Assembly: GCF_000787395.1 (NCBI RefSeq)
Contig: NZ_JRAA01000001.1
Span: 682,001-746,000 of the forward strand
Length of the DNA: 64,000 nt
Direction: 5' to 3'
DNA from: Solemya velum gill symbiont
Lineage (GTDB): Bacteria > Pseudomonadota > Gammaproteobacteria > Chromatiales > Chromatiaceae
In this document: piece after piece, positions 3,048-44,093 of the stretch
Position numbering within the stretch: the first letter of the stretch is position 1
Layout: each line of letters starts with the position of its first letter
Translations under genes and position numbers: made by a program
The notes under the pieces: generated by a model
Database searches by the model: none
Told to the model about the DNA's origin: nothing
Seen by the model: the letters and a program-made list of their open reading frames with translations, nothing else

Positions 3048-4879
3048 TGTCCGCGGCTGAACCACTTGTCGATCTCACCAAGCCCGAGTTGAACCCAGGT
3101 TGGACGGCCATGATTACACTGACCGCTGCGTTCAGTCTCTTCCATGTCGCGCAGCAATGCATTCATTTCAGGTAGCGTCAGGCGCCTGTTCGCTCTCACC
3201 GAGCCATGGCAGGCAATTGTGCCGAGCATCTCGTTGATATTCTCCGCGACACGCTGACTATTACCGTGGACCGCAAGGTCAGCAAGGATATCACGCAACA
3301 GCTGTTCGGCATTGGCACCCTGCAGATAGACCGGCATGGATCGAATCACAAGTTTTTCCTTGCCCAGTGCATCAATCTCCATACCCAGTTCCAGTAACTG
3401 ATCACGGCACTCTCGTGCCAGTTCCGCTTCACGACTGCTGACATCGACTGAGACTGGAACCAGTAACGGTTGTGAACGCATACCGCCCTCCTCCAGCGCC
3501 AGTTTCATGCGCTCGTAGGTGATACGCTCATGGGCTGCATGCATATCGACCACAACCATGCCCTCACTGTTCTCGGCAAGAATATAGATGCCATGCAACT
3601 GCGCCACCGCGTAACCCAGCGGCGGCACACTCTCATCACCAACGGGCACTTGCATCTCATCTGATTGCTGCTGAATGCCGACTGCCGGTTGCTGTCTGCC
3701 GGATGCAGGCATCTGCAGGCGATTAACCGCCTCATAAGTTGCCTGCTTGTCGCGCACAGAGAGACCGAGTGACTGCTGTGGAGGCACCGCCGCTTGTGTA
3801 TAGGCGGGCCTTCCCGGAGAAAAGGAAGATTGTGCAGTCGACGACACGCCCTCTTCGCTGCCAGCGGGTAGATCACCAGGACGACTCTCACCAATCACCT
3901 TGTGCAGGGTACGGAAGAGAAAATCGTGAACAAGGCGGCCTTCCCTGAAACGCACCTCGTGCTTAGTGGGATGCACGTTGACATCAACAAGCACCGGATC
4001 GAGCTCAAGGTAGAGAACATAGGCGGGATGCCTGCCGTGAAAAAGCACATCCTGAAACGCCTGGCGGATAGCGTGCGCAACCAGCTTGTCACGCACCATG
4101 CGGCCATTGACGAAAAAGTGCTGCATATCGGCCTGGCTACGCGAAAAAGTCGGCAAGCCAACCCAGCCCCACAAATGCAGACCTGCCGCCTCGTGATCAA
4201 GCTCGAGGCAATTCTCAACAAAGCCCTTGCCGAGGAGTTGTGCCAGGCGTTGCAGCTGCTGCTCTCGCTGCATGGCAGGCGCAAGGCGCAACACCTCACG
4301 ACCATTATGGGTTAACCGGAAACCGACATCGAAACGTGCCAGCGCAATGCGTCGTAGCAGCTGCTCAATGTGACCGAACTCGGTCTTCTCGGTTTTCAAA
4401 AACTTGCGGCGTGCCGGAGTATTGTAGAAAAGATCGACCACTTCCAGCGTCGTGCCAACAGGGTGTGCTGCCGCACTCACCTCGCCGGCAGAATCGACCA
4501 TGGTGGCATGCGCATCATCTGCAGTACGAGATGTCAGGGCAAGACGTGATACCGAGGCGATACTCGGCAGGGCTTCACCACGGAAACCCATACTGGCTAT
4601 GCGCTCGAGATCTTCCAGTGATGTAAGTTTACTGGTTGCATGGCGTGATAGTGCCAAGCCGATATCATCAGAAAGAATCCCGTGACCATCATCACGGATG
4701 CGGATGCGCTTGACGCCGGCCTGATCAACTGCAACATCAATATCTGTTGCGCCGGCATCCAGGCTGTTTTCGACCAACTCCTTGACCACGGAAGCCGGGC
4801 GCTCGACAACCTCGCCAGCGGCTATCTGGTTGATGAGGACTGAAGGAAGGGCGTGTACGCGCCGAAAAGTGTTACTCAC
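3044..4879 (-). CDS. mutL: MutL, mismatch repair ATPase (endonuclease-type motif)
   Basis: 611 residues. The N-terminal GHKL ATPase shows [31 protein letters not shown] and GFRGEAL. A Pro/Gln-rich linker (about 340-430) leads to the C-terminal dimerisation domain. That domain has [12 protein letters not shown], which fits DQHA(X)2E(X)4E with Met for Gln, plus ACHGSVRA and CNHGRP; these are metal-site motifs of MutL proteins that nick DNA themselves. Such MutLs occur in bacteria without MutH. The gene lies between the amidase and miaA and overlaps miaA. Confidence 0.95.
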
Positions 4880-36763: not shown

Positions 36764-37096
36764 TCAGACACAACCGGTTGGCTTAGGAAGGCCGGCATAA
36801 CGACATGCCTGCTTACCAGGACCGTATGGGAACAGGCCGTACAGGTACTTGCTGTTACCCTTCTCCTTACCCAGCTTCTTGGAAACCGCTTTGGTCAGAA
36901 CGCGTACTGCTGGTGCGATCTGGTACTCTTCGTAGTACTCGCGCAGGAAGTTGATGATGTCCCAGTGCTCGTCGGTCAGCTCAAGTTCGTCTTCCTTGGC
37001 CATAACTTCAGCAACACCTGGCTCCCACTCGTTAATGTTAGCGAGGTAGCCCTCTTCGTCAGTTTCGAATGTCTTACCGTTCACTTCGATAGGCAT
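36764..37096 (-). CDS. dsrC: DsrC, sulfur carrier
   Basis: 110 residues from the ATG at 37096 (MPIEVNGKTFETDEEGYL), which has AGGAGAT upstream. The C-terminal arm is intact: Cys98 (QACRYAG) and penultimate Cys109 (PTGCV), ten residues apart, the pair that carries sulfur as a trisulfide to DsrAB. Substrate of DsrEFH transfer and of DsrK. Compare the cysteine-free paralogue at 43719-44042. Confidence 0.97.
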   Translation of the reverse strand: MPIEVNGKTFETDEEGYLANINEWEPGVAEVMAKEDELELTDEHWDIINFLREYYEEYQIAPAVRVLTKAVSKKLGKEKGNSKYLYGLFPYGPGKQACRYAGLPKPTGCV

Positions 37097-37130
37097 TTGT
37101 GTATCTCCTAAATAAGAAATAAATTGCAGG

Positions 37131-37427
37131 TTACAGCCAGGACTGAACCTTGTCGTTTGATTCAACCAGATCGACAAAGCCCGCATAATCGACGACAGTA
37201 ACGCCATCAACCAGCTTCTCTTCCGAGATGCCGCGTGCAGCCAGGTCCGGACCCAGTACGGAAACTTTCATTCCGCTGATTTTTGATGCAGCTTTACCAC
37301 CACTCATGGCAGCGTAGACCCCATCTTCGATTAACAGCATGGCATCGCCATCGACCATGTAGTCGGCAGCAGTATCCAGGCTATCGCGCTCGTAAGGGGA
37401 TTTGTTCACCAGATGTAAAATTGACAT
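37131..37427 (-). CDS. dsrH: DsrH, sulfur-relay subunit
   Basis: 98 residues, TusB/DsrH family (SILHLVNKSPYERDSL...), part of the DsrE2F2H2 hexamer. This copy has no cysteine at all, whereas A. vinosum DsrH has one near residue 20; the transfer reaction must then rely on DsrE. Spacing to dsrF is 11 bases. Confidence 0.92.
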   Translation of the reverse strand: MSILHLVNKSPYERDSLDTAADYMVDGDAMLLIEDGVYAAMSGGKAASKISGMKVSVLGPDLAARGISEEKLVDGVTVVDYAGFVDLVESNDKVQSWL

Positions 37428-37438
37428 TTGCTTCTCCC

Positions 37439-37846
37439 CTAGAAGTTAAACATGACGTCTTGCCCGGAAAATACCTCGGCAAGTTCTGCACGACTAACCA
37501 GACGAATGGAATCCTTTTCGGCCCAGTCATCATCCTCATCTTCCCAGACAAGGTGCTGAAGGTCGTCGAGTGTCAGGCCACGCTCTTCCAGTGACTCTTT
37601 TTCAACGTAGATCTTGGTAACTTCATAGTCGCCAAGCGCTGCATAAGTCGGTGAGAAGTTCTTCATACCAACACCGGCAGTATCCTGGCCCTTGACCAGC
37701 TGATAGACGCCGTCGTCGATAAACGCAAGACTGACATCCTGTTCAAATGCCGCACCAATCAGAACAACTTCAAGCGACTCCCATGCATAGATGGTGCCGT
37801 AAGGCGCTCTGCGGTTGACGTACATGAATTTTTTCGTTTCAGACAT
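37439..37846 (-). CDS. dsrF: DsrF, sulfur-relay subunit
   Basis: 135 residues, TusC/DsrF family (YVNRRAPYGTIYAWESLEVVLIGAAFEQDVSLAFIDDGVYQL). It has no cysteine, as expected for a structural subunit of DsrEFH. It lies between dsrE and dsrH, gaps 15 and 11 bases. Confidence 0.93.
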   Translation of the reverse strand: MSETKKFMYVNRRAPYGTIYAWESLEVVLIGAAFEQDVSLAFIDDGVYQLVKGQDTAGVGMKNFSPTYAALGDYEVTKIYVEKESLEERGLTLDDLQHLVWEDEDDDWAEKDSIRLVSRAELAEVFSGQDVMFNF

Positions 37847-37861
37847 ATCCGATTCTCCGCA

Positions 37862-38254
37862 TCAGTCGCCGAACACGACCAGACGGTCGCTCTGAATCCC
37901 ACCTTCGACCAACTGGCCGAGGCCAGAGATACGAAAGCCAGGTGCGATGTTGGTCGCGTCCTTTTTATTACGCTCTGCTTCACCGTCATCAACGATTCCA
38001 CGACGCTGGGCAGCGGCGACACAGATAACAAGATCGAGATCATGCTCTGCTGCCAGCTCGCTCCAGCGACTGACGACGTTGCGGTCGTCCTGCGGAGGCG
38101 TCGTCAGACGCGTGCCGTTGTTGACTCCATCGTGATAGAAGAAGACACGAAAAATCTCGTGCCCCTTCTCAAGAGCCGCCTTGGTGAAGAAGTATGCAGA
38201 ATCAGACGCCTGGTGCTGATAAGGCCCTTCATTGACCTGAATGGTTAACTTCAT
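37862..38254 (-). CDS. dsrE: DsrE, sulfur-transfer subunit
   Basis: 130 residues, TusD/DsrE family. The sulfur-binding Cys lies in DLVICVAAAQRRG (about residue 79), matching the active Cys of DsrE. Other markers are IQVNEGPYQHQASDSAYFF and FFYHDGVNNG. It delivers persulfide sulfur to DsrC. It starts 14 bases after dsrB. Confidence 0.94.
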   Translation of the reverse strand: MKLTIQVNEGPYQHQASDSAYFFTKAALEKGHEIFRVFFYHDGVNNGTRLTTPPQDDRNVVSRWSELAAEHDLDLVICVAAAQRRGIVDDGEAERNKKDATNIAPGFRISGLGQLVEGGIQSDRLVVFGD

Positions 38255-38268
38255 CTCGTCACTCCGAA

Positions 38269-39339
38269 TCAGAAGCGGATATGCGCTGAAGCGTTCAGGC
38301 TCTTACGAGCTCCACGCCAGTTATCGATGTGGTACTTGGTAAAGGGCAGCTCAACGAGTTCAAAGAAACGCGGCCATCCGATACGTTCGATCCACTCACC
38401 AACACGCTCCCAATCACGCGCGCCTGCTTTATATTCAGCAAGGATGCGCTTGACGATAGCAGTTGCTTCAGGCCAGCGCGGCGGGTTGTTAGGAATACCA
38501 GCTGCAACAAGCTTCTGGAAAGTCGGCTTACCACGTGCGTTTGAGTGGTTACCACCGACCCAGATTGCCAGCTTGGTGTGCTCAGCATCGTTGATCTGCA
38601 TTGGAGGACAAGGAGGGAAACATGCACCACAACAGATACATTTCTTCTCGTCAACTTCCAGTGAAGGCTTGCCGTTAACCATTGCCGGGCGAATCGCAGC
38701 AACCGGGCAACGTGCAACAACAGTTGGACGCTCGCAGACGTTAGCAACCAGATCATGATTGATCTTTGGTGGCTTGGTGTGCTGTACGTTGATCGCGATA
38801 TCACCCTGGCCACCACAGTTGATCTGGCAGCAAGAAGTCGTGATATGAACACGGTTAGGCATTTCTGAAACTTTAAACTCATCAATGAGTTCGTCCATCA
38901 TGGACTTGACCACGCCTGATGCATCGGTACCGGGAATGTCACAGTGCAGCCAGCCCTGTGTATGCGACAGGGTTGTTACAGAGTTTTTGGTACCACCAAC
39001 GATGAAGCCAGCCTCTTCCAGTTTCTCAATCAGCGGCTCAACACGAGACTCTTCAGTTACGAAGAACTCAGGATTTGAACGGATTGTGAAACGGATAAAA
39101 CCGTCAGAATAGTCATCCGCAATCTGGCACAGGGTGCGCAGAGTGAAGAGATCCAGAATACGCTGGGTACCGGCCTTGATGGTCCACAGCTTGTCACCGT
39201 TTTTAGCAACGTGCAGAAGCACACCCGGACGTGGGTCTTCATGATAAGCCCACAGGCCAAAGTTACGGCGCATCATAGGATGCATGTACTGGAATGGATC
39301 AGGGCACCCGGTTTCGATCGGGTCACGCATGTCTGCCAT
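38269..39339 (-). CDS. dsrB: DsrB, dissimilatory sulfite reductase beta
   Basis: 356 residues from the ATG at 39339 (MADMRDPIETGCPDPFQYMHP). The sirohaem/4Fe-4S segments are visible as TTSCCQINCGGQGD and CERPTVVARCP, with a ferredoxin insert CICCGACFPPCPP. Works with DsrA in the oxidative direction, releasing sulfite from DsrC-bound sulfur. The longer frame to 39387 is not needed. Confidence 0.96.
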   Translation of the reverse strand: MADMRDPIETGCPDPFQYMHPMMRRNFGLWAYHEDPRPGVLLHVAKNGDKLWTIKAGTQRILDLFTLRTLCQIADDYSDGFIRFTIRSNPEFFVTEESRVEPLIEKLEEAGFIVGGTKNSVTTLSHTQGWLHCDIPGTDASGVVKSMMDELIDEFKVSEMPNRVHITTSCCQINCGGQGDIAINVQHTKPPKINHDLVANVCERPTVVARCPVAAIRPAMVNGKPSLEVDEKKCICCGACFPPCPPMQINDAEHTKLAIWVGGNHSNARGKPTFQKLVAAGIPNNPPRWPEATAIVKRILAEYKAGARDWERVGEWIERIGWPRFFELVELPFTKYHIDNWRGARKSLNASAHIRF

Positions 39340-39432
39340 TTCTACCTCCAGAAATTTCGAAAAATTCAGTATTGCACCCGGCTGCAATCAGCCGGGAACA
39401 GAGTATCAATATGTCGAGCGAATCTTCTTTTA

Positions 39433-40683
39433 TTAAGAAGCTTCAGCCTGACGATCAAACCACTTGACGGCTTCCTCATCCCAGCCATCCATACGGATGT
39501 AGGAAGATTCGCGCGGGTTGTTGACCATGTTCGGATCAACTTCAACACCGACGCCTTCAAGGAAGTTCACCAGGCCGATACGTTCGATCATCTCACCGCA
39601 ACGCTCGTGCTCAAGTGCGTTCTCAGCCCAGAAATCAATGATCTCTTCAGCCAGTTCAACAATCTCTTCCCAATCTTCTTCGGTATCGAGCTTCTTGAAA
39701 GGAACAACAACGGTACCCATGAGGTCACCGATCTTGAGGGTACGCTTACCACCGATGAGGATGGTGACACCGCGGTCATCGCCGGGGTGCAGTGCTTTAG
39801 GCACAACGTTCAGGCAGTGCATACAACGGACACAGTCCTTGTTGTTCACTTCCAGGCTGTCATCGTCGTTCAGTGACAGTGCGTTGGTTGGGCAGCGAGT
39901 GATAATGTTATCGATCACGTGCTGGCGACCCTTGCGTCCAACGTAGGCCTTGAACTCGTCCTGGTTGACGTTCATGTCATCGCGCCAGGTACCGATAACT
40001 GCGAAGTCGGCACGCTCAACTGCGTTCTGACAATCGTTTCCGCAACCGGAGACCTTGAACTTGAACTTGTATGGAAGAGCAGGACGGTGGACATCGTCGG
40101 TGAAGTTATTCACCAGAAGGCGATGTGCTTTCTGCTCGTTGGTGCAGGACATCTCGCAACGCGCTGCGCCAACACATGACATTGCAGTACGTACACAAGG
40201 ACCGGCGCCACCAAGATCCCAACCATAGTCGTTGATCTCGTCAAAGAAGTGCTGGGTCTGTTCAGTATCAGTACCGATGAACATGATGTTACCGGTCTGT
40301 CCGTGGAAGGTGACCAGGCCTGAACCATACTTCTCCCAGCTGTCTGCCATCTGGCGCAGCATGTCAGTGCTGTAGTGGTTACCTGCAGGTGGCTGAACAC
40401 GCAGTGTATGGAATTCTTTTGATTCCGGGAATGCATGACCAACTTCTGAGAAACGTGGGATGATTCCGCCACCGTACTGGAATACAGAAACAGTTCCGCC
40501 CTTCCAGTAGCCTTTACGGGTTTCATATGAGTGCTCAAGCTGACCGAGAAGATCATTGGTCATCTTGTTGATACGCTCTTCCGGATGCTCGTCACGCAGA
40601 CGCTTGATACCGGAAATAAAGCTTGGCCAAGGACCGCTTTCCAGCTGGTCCAGCATCGGAGTATGGTGCTTATTAATTGCCAT
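39433..40683 (-). CDS. dsrA: DsrA, dissimilatory sulfite reductase alpha
   Basis: 416 residues. The sirohaem-4Fe-4S motifs are CVGAARC (CX5C) and CGNDC (CX3C); a ferredoxin module shows CPTNALSL and CVRCMHC. First gene of the dsr operon, with an AGGAGAACAAGCG leader before its ATG. The linked dsrEFH and dsrL show that this is the oxidative (reverse) type. Confidence 0.97.
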   Translation of the reverse strand: MAINKHHTPMLDQLESGPWPSFISGIKRLRDEHPEERINKMTNDLLGQLEHSYETRKGYWKGGTVSVFQYGGGIIPRFSEVGHAFPESKEFHTLRVQPPAGNHYSTDMLRQMADSWEKYGSGLVTFHGQTGNIMFIGTDTEQTQHFFDEINDYGWDLGGAGPCVRTAMSCVGAARCEMSCTNEQKAHRLLVNNFTDDVHRPALPYKFKFKVSGCGNDCQNAVERADFAVIGTWRDDMNVNQDEFKAYVGRKGRQHVIDNIITRCPTNALSLNDDDSLEVNNKDCVRCMHCLNVVPKALHPGDDRGVTILIGGKRTLKIGDLMGTVVVPFKKLDTEEDWEEIVELAEEIIDFWAENALEHERCGEMIERIGLVNFLEGVGVEVDPNMVNNPRESSYIRMDGWDEEAVKWFDRQAEAS

Positions 40684-40865: not shown

Positions 40866-40929
40866 CAAAGTGGGGGAGAGGCAATTTATTGCTATCCCCT
40901 TGGGGATATGCCTACTTTGAACCGATGTA
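40866..40929. promoter_or_regulatory. Nested inverted repeats in the dsr control region
   Basis: The inner site is TATCCCC-TT-GGGGATA (40893-40908), 7-base arms. Outer CAAAGT...AGGCA can pair with TGCCTACTTTG at the right edge if 7 bases are looped out. Arms and spacing look like a protein-binding site shared by the two divergent transcription units. Confidence 0.45.
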
Positions 40930-41085: not shown

Positions 41086-42000
41086 ATGAATGTAGCAACG
41101 CAACATGATTCGCCCTTTCTGACGGCCAATAAAGAGGCCTATGAAAACTGGAAAAAATGGAAGCTCGAACAGCAACCGGCAGCAGAAATGCTTGCCGATC
41201 CAGTTGTCGTGCATAATCCTGCCGCGCTGACACAGTCGGAGCTTGACGCCATACGTGAACGCGTCAGGGCAACCAACTGGGTGCTGTTTCGTATGGAAGA
41301 GCGTGACACTCTTGACCAGAACACGATCAAACAGTTTGCATCTCAGCTGGGATTGACGAGCCTCGATGCCAACCTCAAGTCCGAAGAGAGCGGTGTCAGC
41401 GCAATTTGTGTGAAAAAACAGGAAAGCACCCCATATATCCCCTATACCAGCAGACAAATCAGCTGGCATACGGATGGTTATTACAATGACAGCGATGAAC
41501 AGATATACGGTATGTTGCTGTATTGCGTGCGACAGGCGGCTGAGGGTGGCAGCAACGACCTGATGGATCATGAACTGCTCTACATGATGCTGCGAGACGA
41601 GGACCCTGCAATGATCGACGCCCTCATGCACCCGGAGGCAATGACGATTCCGGCCAACATCGAAAATGGCGTCGAGATTCGTCCCGATCATACCGGGCCT
41701 GTTTTTTCGATTCGTGCCGACGGCAACCTGCACATGCGCTACTCTGCCCGAACACGCAATATTATCTGGCGGGATGACGCCGATACACAACGTGCAGCAG
41801 CACGCATTGTCGAATTGATGAGTGGAGATGAATACCCGGTGATCCATCACCACATGCAGCCCGGGGAAGGTGTCATCTGTAACAATGTCCTGCATCGCCG
41901 CGATGCTTTTAAAGATGGCGATGCACCGGAACAGCAGCGGCTATATTACCGCGCAAGATTCAGTGACCGTATCGCAGGAACCGGTTACCAAAACGGATAA
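41086..42000 (+). CDS. TauD/TfdA-like Fe(II)/2-oxoglutarate dioxygenase
   Basis: 304 residues. The iron-binding triad is visible: His128 and Asp130 in SWHTDGYYND, and distal His270 in NNVLHRRDAF; Arg289/Arg291 in YYRARF would hold 2-oxoglutarate. No signal peptide. The family oxidises taurine, other sulfonates and many other substrates; nothing here fixes the substrate. It is the first gene of a tight rightward cassette and is divergent from dsrA. No strong Shine-Dalgarno is seen before the ATG. Confidence 0.85.
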   Translation: MNVATQHDSPFLTANKEAYENWKKWKLEQQPAAEMLADPVVVHNPAALTQSELDAIRERVRATNWVLFRMEERDTLDQNTIKQFASQLGLTSLDANLKSEESGVSAICVKKQESTPYIPYTSRQISWHTDGYYNDSDEQIYGMLLYCVRQAAEGGSNDLMDHELLYMMLRDEDPAMIDALMHPEAMTIPANIENGVEIRPDHTGPVFSIRADGNLHMRYSARTRNIIWRDDADTQRAAARIVELMSGDEYPVIHHHMQPGEGVICNNVLHRRDAFKDGDAPEQQRLYYRARFSDRIAGTGYQNG

Positions 42001-42005
42001 AGATT

Positions 42006-42197
42006 ATGCTATTACTCAGTGAAATTATGATTGCCAACCAGCAGTTCAAGACCTTTGAGGAGCTTGAGGCTGCCGTGAGTGAAATTGCCAATAGCGGTGA
42101 ACGCTTTTTCCGTATCGACGTCAAACCCCAGTACTTCGATACACCGAATGACTGGGAAGAGCGTCTCGAAGCAGCTTTCAGCACACTTGGCAGGTAA
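42006..42197 (+). CDS. 63-residue protein in the dsr-linked cassette
   Basis: MLLLSEIMIANQQFKTFEEL... with a C-terminal RIDVKPQYFDTPNDWEERLEAAF. No membrane segment or cysteine. It starts 5 bases after the dioxygenase stop and ends 6 bases before the next ATG, so it is very likely translated with them; an internal ATG at 42027 is a second possible start. I have the impression that similar short proteins occur beside DsrC-like genes in sulfur oxidisers, but cannot confirm it. Function unknown. Confidence 0.7.
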   Translation: MLLLSEIMIANQQFKTFEELEAAVSEIANSGERFFRIDVKPQYFDTPNDWEERLEAAFSTLGR

Positions 42198-42203
42198 ATT
42201 GAC

Positions 42204-42917
42204 ATGACGGACATATTTGACCCGAACAAACTACAGGATACGGCTGCTGACTCATTGCGCAAGACGCTGGGACAGGACGCCCAGCTGGAAGGCGAACTGC
42301 ACGAACTTAAACAGCAGCTGGCAAAATTACCCGAAAGTGCAAACCCGCTCGAGCGCGCAAAACTTTTACTGGAGATGGCACGTGCCCACCAGATACTCGA
42401 GCGTGGCGCCGAGGCCTGGCCGCTGGGGCGTACTGCATTCGACATTTATGCAGAAGCCGAGGCCTGGGAAGAGGCAGCAGATGCCTGCGACATTCTCTAC
42501 CAGTGTGACCAGCCCGATTCACTTGTTGCTCTCGGTAATGGCGCCTGGCTAGGTGTGACATTCCCGATAGATCCGGAAATCAGCGTTCATCTGCTGAGCC
42601 ATATCGTTGACGACACCCCGGATGATGCCGACGGTGCTGCAGTTGCTGCCGCGACAGCCCTGTTCCTCGCAGATGTACGTGCCGAGGAAGGCACAGAGAA
42701 AGAGCGCCTCACCTTCTTCTCCAACCAGATGCTTGGACAGGTCGCACGGCGCCACTCACAGGTAGACAACGAGGAGCAGTTTTCCTTCTGGATCGAGAAA
42801 CTCGAACTCAACGATCCTGACAAATTCCTGGTACGTCTGCGCAACGTCATCGATGTGCTGGCACAGGATGACTGGTGGATCGACCGCGACGCAATCCAGG
42901 CATCACTACCCCACTAG
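42204..42917 (+). CDS. Unrecognised 237-residue protein of the cassette
   Basis: Acidic and helical, with a TPR-like middle (LERAKLLLEMARAHQILERGAEAWPLGRTAFDIYAEAEAWEEAADACDILYQC), and a C-terminal half with FWIEKLELNDPDKFLVRLRNVIDVLAQDDWW. No catalytic motif, signal or membrane segment. Gaps of 6 and 9 bases to its neighbours place it firmly in the operon. It may be a scaffold or adaptor for the Cas6-like protein that follows; this is inference from position only. Confidence 0.7.
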   Translation: MTDIFDPNKLQDTAADSLRKTLGQDAQLEGELHELKQQLAKLPESANPLERAKLLLEMARAHQILERGAEAWPLGRTAFDIYAEAEAWEEAADACDILYQCDQPDSLVALGNGAWLGVTFPIDPEISVHLLSHIVDDTPDDADGAAVAAATALFLADVRAEEGTEKERLTFFSNQMLGQVARRHSQVDNEEQFSFWIEKLELNDPDKFLVRLRNVIDVLAQDDWWIDRDAIQASLPH

Positions 42918-42926
42918 GTAACAGGC

Positions 42927-43622
42927 ATGTTCTGGGAAGAAGACGAAAAAATAAACGAAAAGGTACCGGATAGCATCCTAGATCTTCTGTTCGAGATTCG
43001 CGGACGTGAAATACCGGTCGACCACGCATACGCACTCTCGACTGCGATCACCTCGATTGCGCCCGAGATACTTGAGGATGGACGCTTCGGGGTACACACG
43101 ATTCATGTAGCCGGCTCGCAGAACGGCTGGGAAAGACCCGACTTCAACACCGAGAATCGTCTCATCATCTCGCGCAGAACCAAGTTCACCCTGCGCGTCC
43201 CACGTGAGCATGCCAGTGCGGCTGAAGAGAAACTCAGCGGCGCACAGCTCGACCTGGGCGGCTGCCAAATCACACTCGGCAAGGCAAAAGAACGTCCGCT
43301 GAGCAAGCAGGGAACAATCTTCTCACGCTACGTGCAGAGCGACCCGGATGAGAGCGAAATGAATTTCCTGCAGCGTATCGCCAATGAATTGAAACAGCAC
43401 GACATCCGCATCAAGAAGGCGATGTGCGGCAAAAACGTCAGTGTCTATACGCCGGACGGTCCGATCGAGAGCCGCAGCCTGATGCTGGCAGACCTGTTAA
43501 CCGAGGAGACTCTCAAGCTGCAGGAAGTTGGGCTAGGCCCCGGCAGGCACATGGGATTTGGCATCTTCATCCCGCACAAGGGCATAGAAGCGGTCAACAA
43601 AGGCGAAGAGGAAGAGAAGTGA
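42927..43622 (+). CDS. Cas6/Cmx6-like RAMP protein, orphan
   Basis: 231 residues that look like the Cas6 variant of MYXAN-type CRISPR systems (Cmx6). The N-terminal IPVDHAYALSTAITSIAPEI holds a possible catalytic His33. The middle has FTLRVPREHASAAEEKLSGAQLDLGG, KERPLSKQGTIFSRYV and FLQRIANEL. The C-terminus has RSLMLADLLTEETLKLQEVGLGPGRHMGFGIFIP with the glycine-rich loop G-x-G-P-G-R-x-x-G-F-G of Cas6. Cas6 cuts CRISPR RNA at a hairpin. No repeat array or other cas gene is in the window, and it sits in an operon with a DsrC paralogue. An AGGTAACAGGC site precedes the ATG. Confidence 0.75.
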   Translation: MFWEEDEKINEKVPDSILDLLFEIRGREIPVDHAYALSTAITSIAPEILEDGRFGVHTIHVAGSQNGWERPDFNTENRLIISRRTKFTLRVPREHASAAEEKLSGAQLDLGGCQITLGKAKERPLSKQGTIFSRYVQSDPDESEMNFLQRIANELKQHDIRIKKAMCGKNVSVYTPDGPIESRSLMLADLLTEETLKLQEVGLGPGRHMGFGIFIPHKGIEAVNKGEEEEK

Positions 43623-43718
43623 GTCTATCCCAAAGAGGCTAGTTGTCAGCACACACTCTCTTTTCATAAAATCTGCACACAATATTTATGACAATTTGAC
43701 AAGAACAGGAGTAGAAAC

Positions 43719-44042
43719 ATGGCACTTGATACTGACGCAAACGGCAATCTGACAGATCCAAACGCATGGAGCGAAGATGTTGCACGTGAACTTGCAGCAG
43801 CTGATGACACCATGAGCGAGCTGTCCCAGGAACATATGGATGTACTCAACTACCTGCGTGACGAGTACTTCAACAACAACCAGAACCAGCCGATGGAGCG
43901 TATGATCGTCAAGGGCATGAGCAAAGTCTGGGGCAAGAAAATCGGTAGCAAGGACCTCTACGTCCTTTTCCCGGGCGCACCCAGCAAGCAGGGCAACCGC
44001 ATTGCGGGACTGCCTTACATCGCACGTAAAGGCGGATATTGA
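43719..44042 (+). CDS. DsrC/TusE paralogue without redox cysteines (RspA type)
   Basis: 107 residues, clearly DsrC fold (ELSQEHMDVLNYLRDEYF; KVWGKKIGSKDLYVLFPGAPSKQGNRIAGLPY). The C-terminal arm ends IARKGGY: the position of DsrC Cys98 is Asn93 and that of Cys109 is Lys104; there is no cysteine in the protein. DsrC relatives lacking both cysteines have been called RspA and proposed to be regulators. AGGAG upstream; it lies 96 bases after the Cas6-like gene and is followed by a strong terminator. Confidence 0.88.
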   Translation: MALDTDANGNLTDPNAWSEDVARELAAADDTMSELSQEHMDVLNYLRDEYFNNNQNQPMERMIVKGMSKVWGKKIGSKDLYVLFPGAPSKQGNRIAGLPYIARKGGY

Positions 44043-44068
44043 TCTGTTAGAAGGTTCAATACCTGTTG

Positions 44069-44093
44069 AAAAGGCGGCTTCGGCCGCCTTTTT
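44069..44093 (+). terminator. Intrinsic terminator of the cassette
   Basis: AAAAGGCGGC pairs with GCCGCCTTTT around a 4-base TTCG loop, followed by T's, 27 bases after the rspA-type stop. Symmetric, so it could also act on leftward RNA. Confidence 0.92.

Follow-up and report, generated by a model that had tools for sequence, protein, structure and literature searches.

The five-gene block facing dsrABEFHC

The window, a 64-kb stretch of the genome of the Solemya velum gill symbiont, carries dsrABEFHC (its dsrA matching TIGR02064 at E=5e-195) and, about 400 nt away and divergent from it, a block of five genes (Table 1). The block runs from a TauD-like gene through the genes of a 63-aa protein and a TPR-like protein to a Cas6-family gene in fourth place, and closes with a DsrC paralogue devoid of the C-terminal cysteines. 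Spacing among the upstream genes is 5 to 9 nt, with 9 nt between the 237-aa gene and the Cas6-family gene, and 96 nt containing a promoter-like match separate the latter from the DsrC paralogue. The initial annotation had placed the Cas6-like gene beside the dsr operon, as the divergent arrangement bears out, and in an operon with the DsrC paralogue. The two genes are indeed adjacent; their co-transcription is likely, the promoter-like match in the gap being what qualifies it. The probable terminator hairpin after the DsrC paralogue was read from the sequence and is not listed by the pattern scan.

Foldseek returned only weak TPR-type matches for the 237-aa protein (best E 0.026). We also considered a Cse2 identity for it, on weak Pfam matches in 2/50 members (best E 0.012), and attribute these to chance, given many equal matches and a TPR-like fold. 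Every complete DsrC paralogue found beside Cas6 has the ending RKGGY and neither of the C-terminal cysteines.

Table 1 Features of the Cas6-like locus, in positions of the window
Feature	Positions	Strand	Basis
dsrABEFHC, divergent from the Cas6 block	36764..40683	-	ORFs and conserved synteny
Palindrome TATCCC-N4-GGGATA, probable shared DNA operator	40893..40908	.	Divergent intergenic region
TauD/TfdA-type Fe(II)/2-oxoglutarate dioxygenase-like protein	41086..42000	+	PF02668 E=2.9e-20; conserved WHTDGYYN, NN.LH.R
Small conserved protein, 63 aa, no known family	42006..42197	+	66/70 Cas6 loci; conserved DvKP...DTP..WEd.lEaaF
All-helical TPR-like protein, 237 aa, no known family	42204..42917	+	AF2 pLDDT 92
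Orphan Cas6-family protein, 231 aa	42927..43622	+	PF09559, TIGR02807, AF2 model nearest 8fcj_B
D32-H33, position of the N-terminal catalytic-type histidine	43020..43025	+	Alignment of orthologues and CRISPR Cas6
Conserved insert loop HTIHVAGSQNGWERPD	43095..43142	+	Low pLDDT; not in CRISPR I-MYXAN Cas6
C-terminal glycine-rich loop GLGPGRHMGFGIF	43530..43568	+	No variation at G204 and G210 across 69 orthologues
Cysteine-less DsrC/TusE-family paralogue ending RKGGY	43719..44042	+	PF04358 E=3.3e-26
Hairpin GGCGGCTTCGGCCGCC and T-run, probable terminator	44068..44093	+	Read from the sequence

Membership in the Cas6 family

By profile and by fold, the 231-aa protein is a true member of the Cas6 family. 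It matches the Pfam profile PF09559 at 193.8 bits (cut-off 26.7; E=3.9e-57) and the NCBIfam model TIGR02807, cas6_cmx6, with 99.8 bits, barely over the cut-off of 98.85; the latter model is matched by 69/69 orthologues at E<=0.001. Sequence search with the single protein reached PDB chain 8fcj_B (E=1.2e-9), and the profile built from the 69 orthologues reached 8fcj, the Cas6 of a type I-B CAST, at E=4.6e-25. The AlphaFold2 model (pLDDT 87.8) has 8fcj_B as its top Foldseek match in the PDB (E 1.6e-14, TM 0.75/0.80). Further Cas6 and Cse3 structures come next, and almost every match at E<=0.001 is of these two kinds. Matches of the Cas6 profile to caspase-1 (E 0.06) were of fragment length only and were dismissed as chance. 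The open reading frame is thus present, and profile and structure agree with the Cas6/Cmx6-like protein that had been proposed for it.

Two motifs had been read in this protein, an N-terminal DHxYxL segment and a C-terminal glycine-rich loop. Both D32-H33...L37 and the loop GLGPGRHMGFGIF are found, while the Tyr of DHxYxL proved variable in orthologues. His33 is present in all 69 close orthologues and in 6/6 CRISPR I-MYXAN Cas6; Tyr takes its place in the betaproteobacterial-type orthologue of locus L114 (7936-8514, reverse strand), a gene still divergent from dsrA. Counterparts of the glycine-rich loop in the six aligned CRISPR proteins are GLGGKRRLGCGVF and similar. The insert NGW.RPD is a feature of the gamma-type orphans; it is missing from the CRISPR members and from four beta-type loci, and altered in some divergent gamma members.

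The orphans are remodelled relative to CRISPR Cas6

Our comparison set comprised six I-MYXAN Cas6 from cyanobacterial plasmids, each encoded beside cas3. These have a pI of 9.3-9.6 and a net charge of +6 to +10, whereas the orphans have a median pI of 5.8 and a net charge of -6; the window protein itself has a pI of 5.5, a value that describes whole-chain charge and not the surface. Ten basic columns of the CRISPR proteins are lost in the orphans and R90 and R134 are kept, and seven new basic positions are conserved (R70, R83, R123, K163, K164, R183 and K218). In a tree of 81 dsr-type and 6 CRISPR proteins the two groups are split by a branch with support 100/99, and the beta-type proteins fall outside the gamma ones; with few CRISPR members and long branches, this split does not settle the origin.

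Co-occurrence and linkage with dsrA

Among 369 Gammaproteobacteria (GTDB class), dsrA was found by profile in 119 genomes and PF09559 in 118, as a single copy in each, one split fragment aside. Both are present in 111 genomes, Cas6 only in 7, dsrA only in 8 and neither in 243 (Fisher p=7e-75, which overstates independence since the genomes are related). Where the two share a contig (84 genomes), they lie within 6 kb of each other in 82, divergent in 82/82. The seven Cas6-only genomes are largely accounted for by assembly gaps, the Cas6 contig ending near the expected dsrA, with G339 as the one not so explained; one of the seven has a dsrA fragment at a contig start and another a dsrB fragment elsewhere. 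A contig end likewise lies close to dsrA in 7 of the 8 genomes that have dsrA only, including one (G163) whose contig stops inside the 237-aa gene, adjoining the expected position of Cas6, and a single genome (G251) has a long region upstream of dsrA and no Cas6. Sibling genomes in families f2, f33 and f135 that lack both Cas6 and dsrA hint at joint loss. Two genomes (loci L139 and L140) carry a second dsrAB copy and one Cas6, with none seen beside the second copy.

The survey of gene neighbourhoods that the initial annotation had called for reveals a conserved block divergent from dsrA. Block order is kept in nearly all of 40 relatives from the genome collection. A further 30 loci from other families span at most 3.6 kb, so that neighbour counts are minima: the DsrC paralogue accompanies Cas6 in at least 26, the 63-aa gene in at least 27, TauD in at least 24 and the 237-aa gene in at least 15. 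Near dsrA, four betaproteobacterial-type loci (L111-L114) retain Cas6 together with the DsrC paralogue and TauD, interspersed with further genes, one of which was recognised by eye in L112 as rhodanese-like. In two genomes of 1.4-1.5 Mb (loci L122 and L123), Cas6 lies far from dsrA and near lgt-thyA, genes located downstream of the DsrC paralogue in the window as well. Distances of Cas6 and the TPR-like protein are correlated (r=0.85); a mirror-tree comparison with DsrB yielded low correlations throughout (r=0.16 for Cas6 and 0.35 for DsrA) and was given little weight.

In a phylum-wide sample the gene is present in 5/5 dsrA-positive genomes of Gammaproteobacteria and in 0/48 of those of other Pseudomonadota classes. 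The gene is therefore a companion of reverse dissimilatory sulfite reductase (rDsr) in a single lineage, apparently an innovation there, and DsrAB chemistry in itself does not depend on it. These analyses show that this Cas6-family protein, with its near-perfect co-occurrence with dsrA and divergent linkage, is dedicated to the rDsr pathway and independent of CRISPR.

Search for CRISPR components

The genome (2.70 Mb in 10 contigs, 99.7% complete) has no match to Cas1 or Cas6_C and none to Cas3 over the cut-off, with only weak Cas3 matches below it. Within the window there is neither a CRISPR-like periodic repeat nor an Rfam match. This confirms the earlier reading of a locus free of arrays and other cas genes and extends it, for Cas1 and Cas3, to the rest of the genome, where a full cas locus would have spoken for a CRISPR role. 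The paper describing this genome makes no mention of CRISPR (PMC4287430). Among genomes bearing an orthologue, Cas1 is absent from 20/40, and Cas6 shows no association with Cas1 over the 369 gammaproteobacterial genomes (p=0.13). We also looked for viral or phage carriage of the Cas6-like gene and found none.

The intergenic region and possible RNA targets

The palindrome TATCCC-N4-GGGATA is present in 30/36 intergenic regions, at 163-278 nt upstream of dsrA; its arms are conserved and its loop varies. No compensatory changes were found in its arms across the 36 regions; we therefore rejected an RNA hairpin at this position and read the palindrome as a DNA operator for both operons. The whole genome holds three exact copies, that of the window included, and one of the two others precedes a LysR-type regulator gene by ~100 bp (near 3452 of locus L149). 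A degenerate copy with 2 mismatches (43625-43641) directly follows the Cas6 stop, ahead of the promoter-like match before the DsrC paralogue. A hairpin target in the gap between Cas6 and the DsrC paralogue was likewise discarded, as single-sequence folds show no structure in common, and no covarying RNA target was found in this gap or in the regions upstream of dsrA. The suggestion that the protein processes or binds dsr transcripts is not established by these results: no covarying hairpin was found, the palindrome resembles an operator acting as DNA, and the protein, unlike CRISPR Cas6, is acidic.

Proposed role

On balance, we consider it probable that the protein is a domesticated Cas6-fold accessory of rDsr that still binds specific RNA, with the TPR-like protein and the DsrC paralogue as partners. 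A Cas6-family RAMP protein would have left the CRISPR setting, probably once, in the gamma/betaproteobacterial lineage, and would then have been fixed as a single-copy accessory of the rDsr pathway, made from a block that shares a single regulatory region with the dsr operon opposite. Most likely it would still bind one specific structured RNA, using the NGW.RPD loop and its remodelled basic residues; together with the TPR-like protein and the redox-dead DsrC paralogue it could tune how the Dsr machinery is expressed or assembled. A specific RNA ligand is favoured by the kept histidine, glycine-rich loop and R90/R134 and by the basic residues newly conserved in the orphans. RNA binding seems rather probable to us; for cleavage we would put the case lower, as a possibility short of the expected outcome, and a dsr transcript as the target is more doubtful still. 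Whether the block proteins would form a physical complex is evenly balanced. Against the preferred reading stand the acidity of the protein with its ten lost basic columns, the lack of a covarying RNA target and the 48 dsrA-positive genomes without the gene. The initial interpretation is well supported as to a Cas6 fold that serves in a non-CRISPR setting with a link to sulfur oxidation; action on dsr RNA remains a guess.

Several other roles have to be weighed against RNA binding. The main one, which we hold to be not very likely, is that the protein no longer binds RNA and uses its Cas6 fold to bring other proteins together, as an adaptor or assembly factor that might, for instance, hold the TPR protein and the Cys-less DsrC paralogue to DsrAB or DsrEFH. 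Such a role would suit an acidic protein that has lost ten basic columns and is strongly conserved in a loop missing from CRISPR Cas6, and would fit its TPR-like and DsrC-like neighbours and its distance correlation with the former; acidity and the loss of the histidine in L114 favour it, or a binding-only role. It accounts poorly, however, for a His33 present in every close orthologue, for the kept glycine-rich loop and arginines and for seven new conserved basic residues. A further reading is a domesticated Cas6 endoribonuclease dedicated to regulating lithotrophic sulfur oxidation post-transcriptionally: it would recognise a non-CRISPR RNA element and couple sulfur flux to Dsr production, helped by the TPR protein and by a redox-dead DsrC that senses the sulfur state. 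We regard this as unlikely. The strongest conservation lies partly in the NGW.RPD loop, which CRISPR Cas6 does not have, and this, together with the histidine loss in L114, argues against conserved nuclease chemistry.

A link to tRNA was also considered, in which the Cas6-fold protein binds tRNA and its TusE/DsrC-like partner joins DsrEFH sulfur to tRNA thiolation. TusE and DsrC form a single family, and in E. coli TusE acts with TusBCD, which are related to DsrEFH, and with MnmA. The DsrC paralogue of the block, however, has no C-terminal cysteine and therefore should not carry sulfur, and the block tracks dsrA whereas tRNA thiolation is much wider in distribution, so that we find this role improbable. 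Least credible of all is a CRISPR role, whether in crRNA processing for a system encoded elsewhere in the cell or as the remnant of a decayed CRISPR locus, although the protein matches a CRISPR-associated model, TIGR02807, and Cas1 is present in some orthologue-bearing genomes. We rejected it on the absence from this genome of Cas1 and of any Cas3 over the cut-off, the independence from Cas1 over 369 genomes and the 20/40 Cas1-free genomes; the gene is, moreover, single-copy and syntenic, with intact frames across many families.

Cas6 is the CRISPR RNA processor, and to our knowledge the family has so far been known only for handling CRISPR RNA. Our search of the open-licence literature returned no comparable orphan cas6 and no such link of cas6 to dsrC or tusE; as far as found, the setting among dsr genes, independent of CRISPR, is new for this known family and has no earlier description. 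A Cas6-family protein that tracks a central energy pathway without CRISPR would be a clear recruitment from defence to metabolism, and the well-studied rDsr pathway would have a five-gene accessory block that is apparently undescribed. Misannotation is widespread, as the current NCBI model labels these proteins type I-MYXAN CRISPR-associated.

Comparison with known systems

Type I-MYXAN Cas6/Cmx6 proteins (TIGR02807) share with the orphans the profile family, the DH...L segment and the glycine-rich loop, at 24-28% identity over most of the length. They are basic, lie beside cas3 and have no NGW.RPD loop, whereas the window protein is acidic and lies beside dsr genes; neither cas genes or an array alongside nor a basic chain, as expected of CRISPR I-MYXAN, is found for it. 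The best structure match, the Cas6 of a type I-B CAST (PDB 8fcj), is part of a transposon-encoded Cascade, shares 22% identity and has Asn aligned to His33. The partner at the end of the block belongs to the family of DsrC/TusE sulfur carriers, but DsrC carriers have two conserved C-terminal cysteines and the partner and its orthologues have neither, ending in RKGGY. Homologues of dsrC outside the operon and without the two cysteines were noted in the genome paper of the symbiont (PMC4287430). As far as found, the described dsr genes include none of the five in the block, and the block stands divergent from the rDsr operon dsrABEFHCMKLJOPNRS and tracks its distribution.
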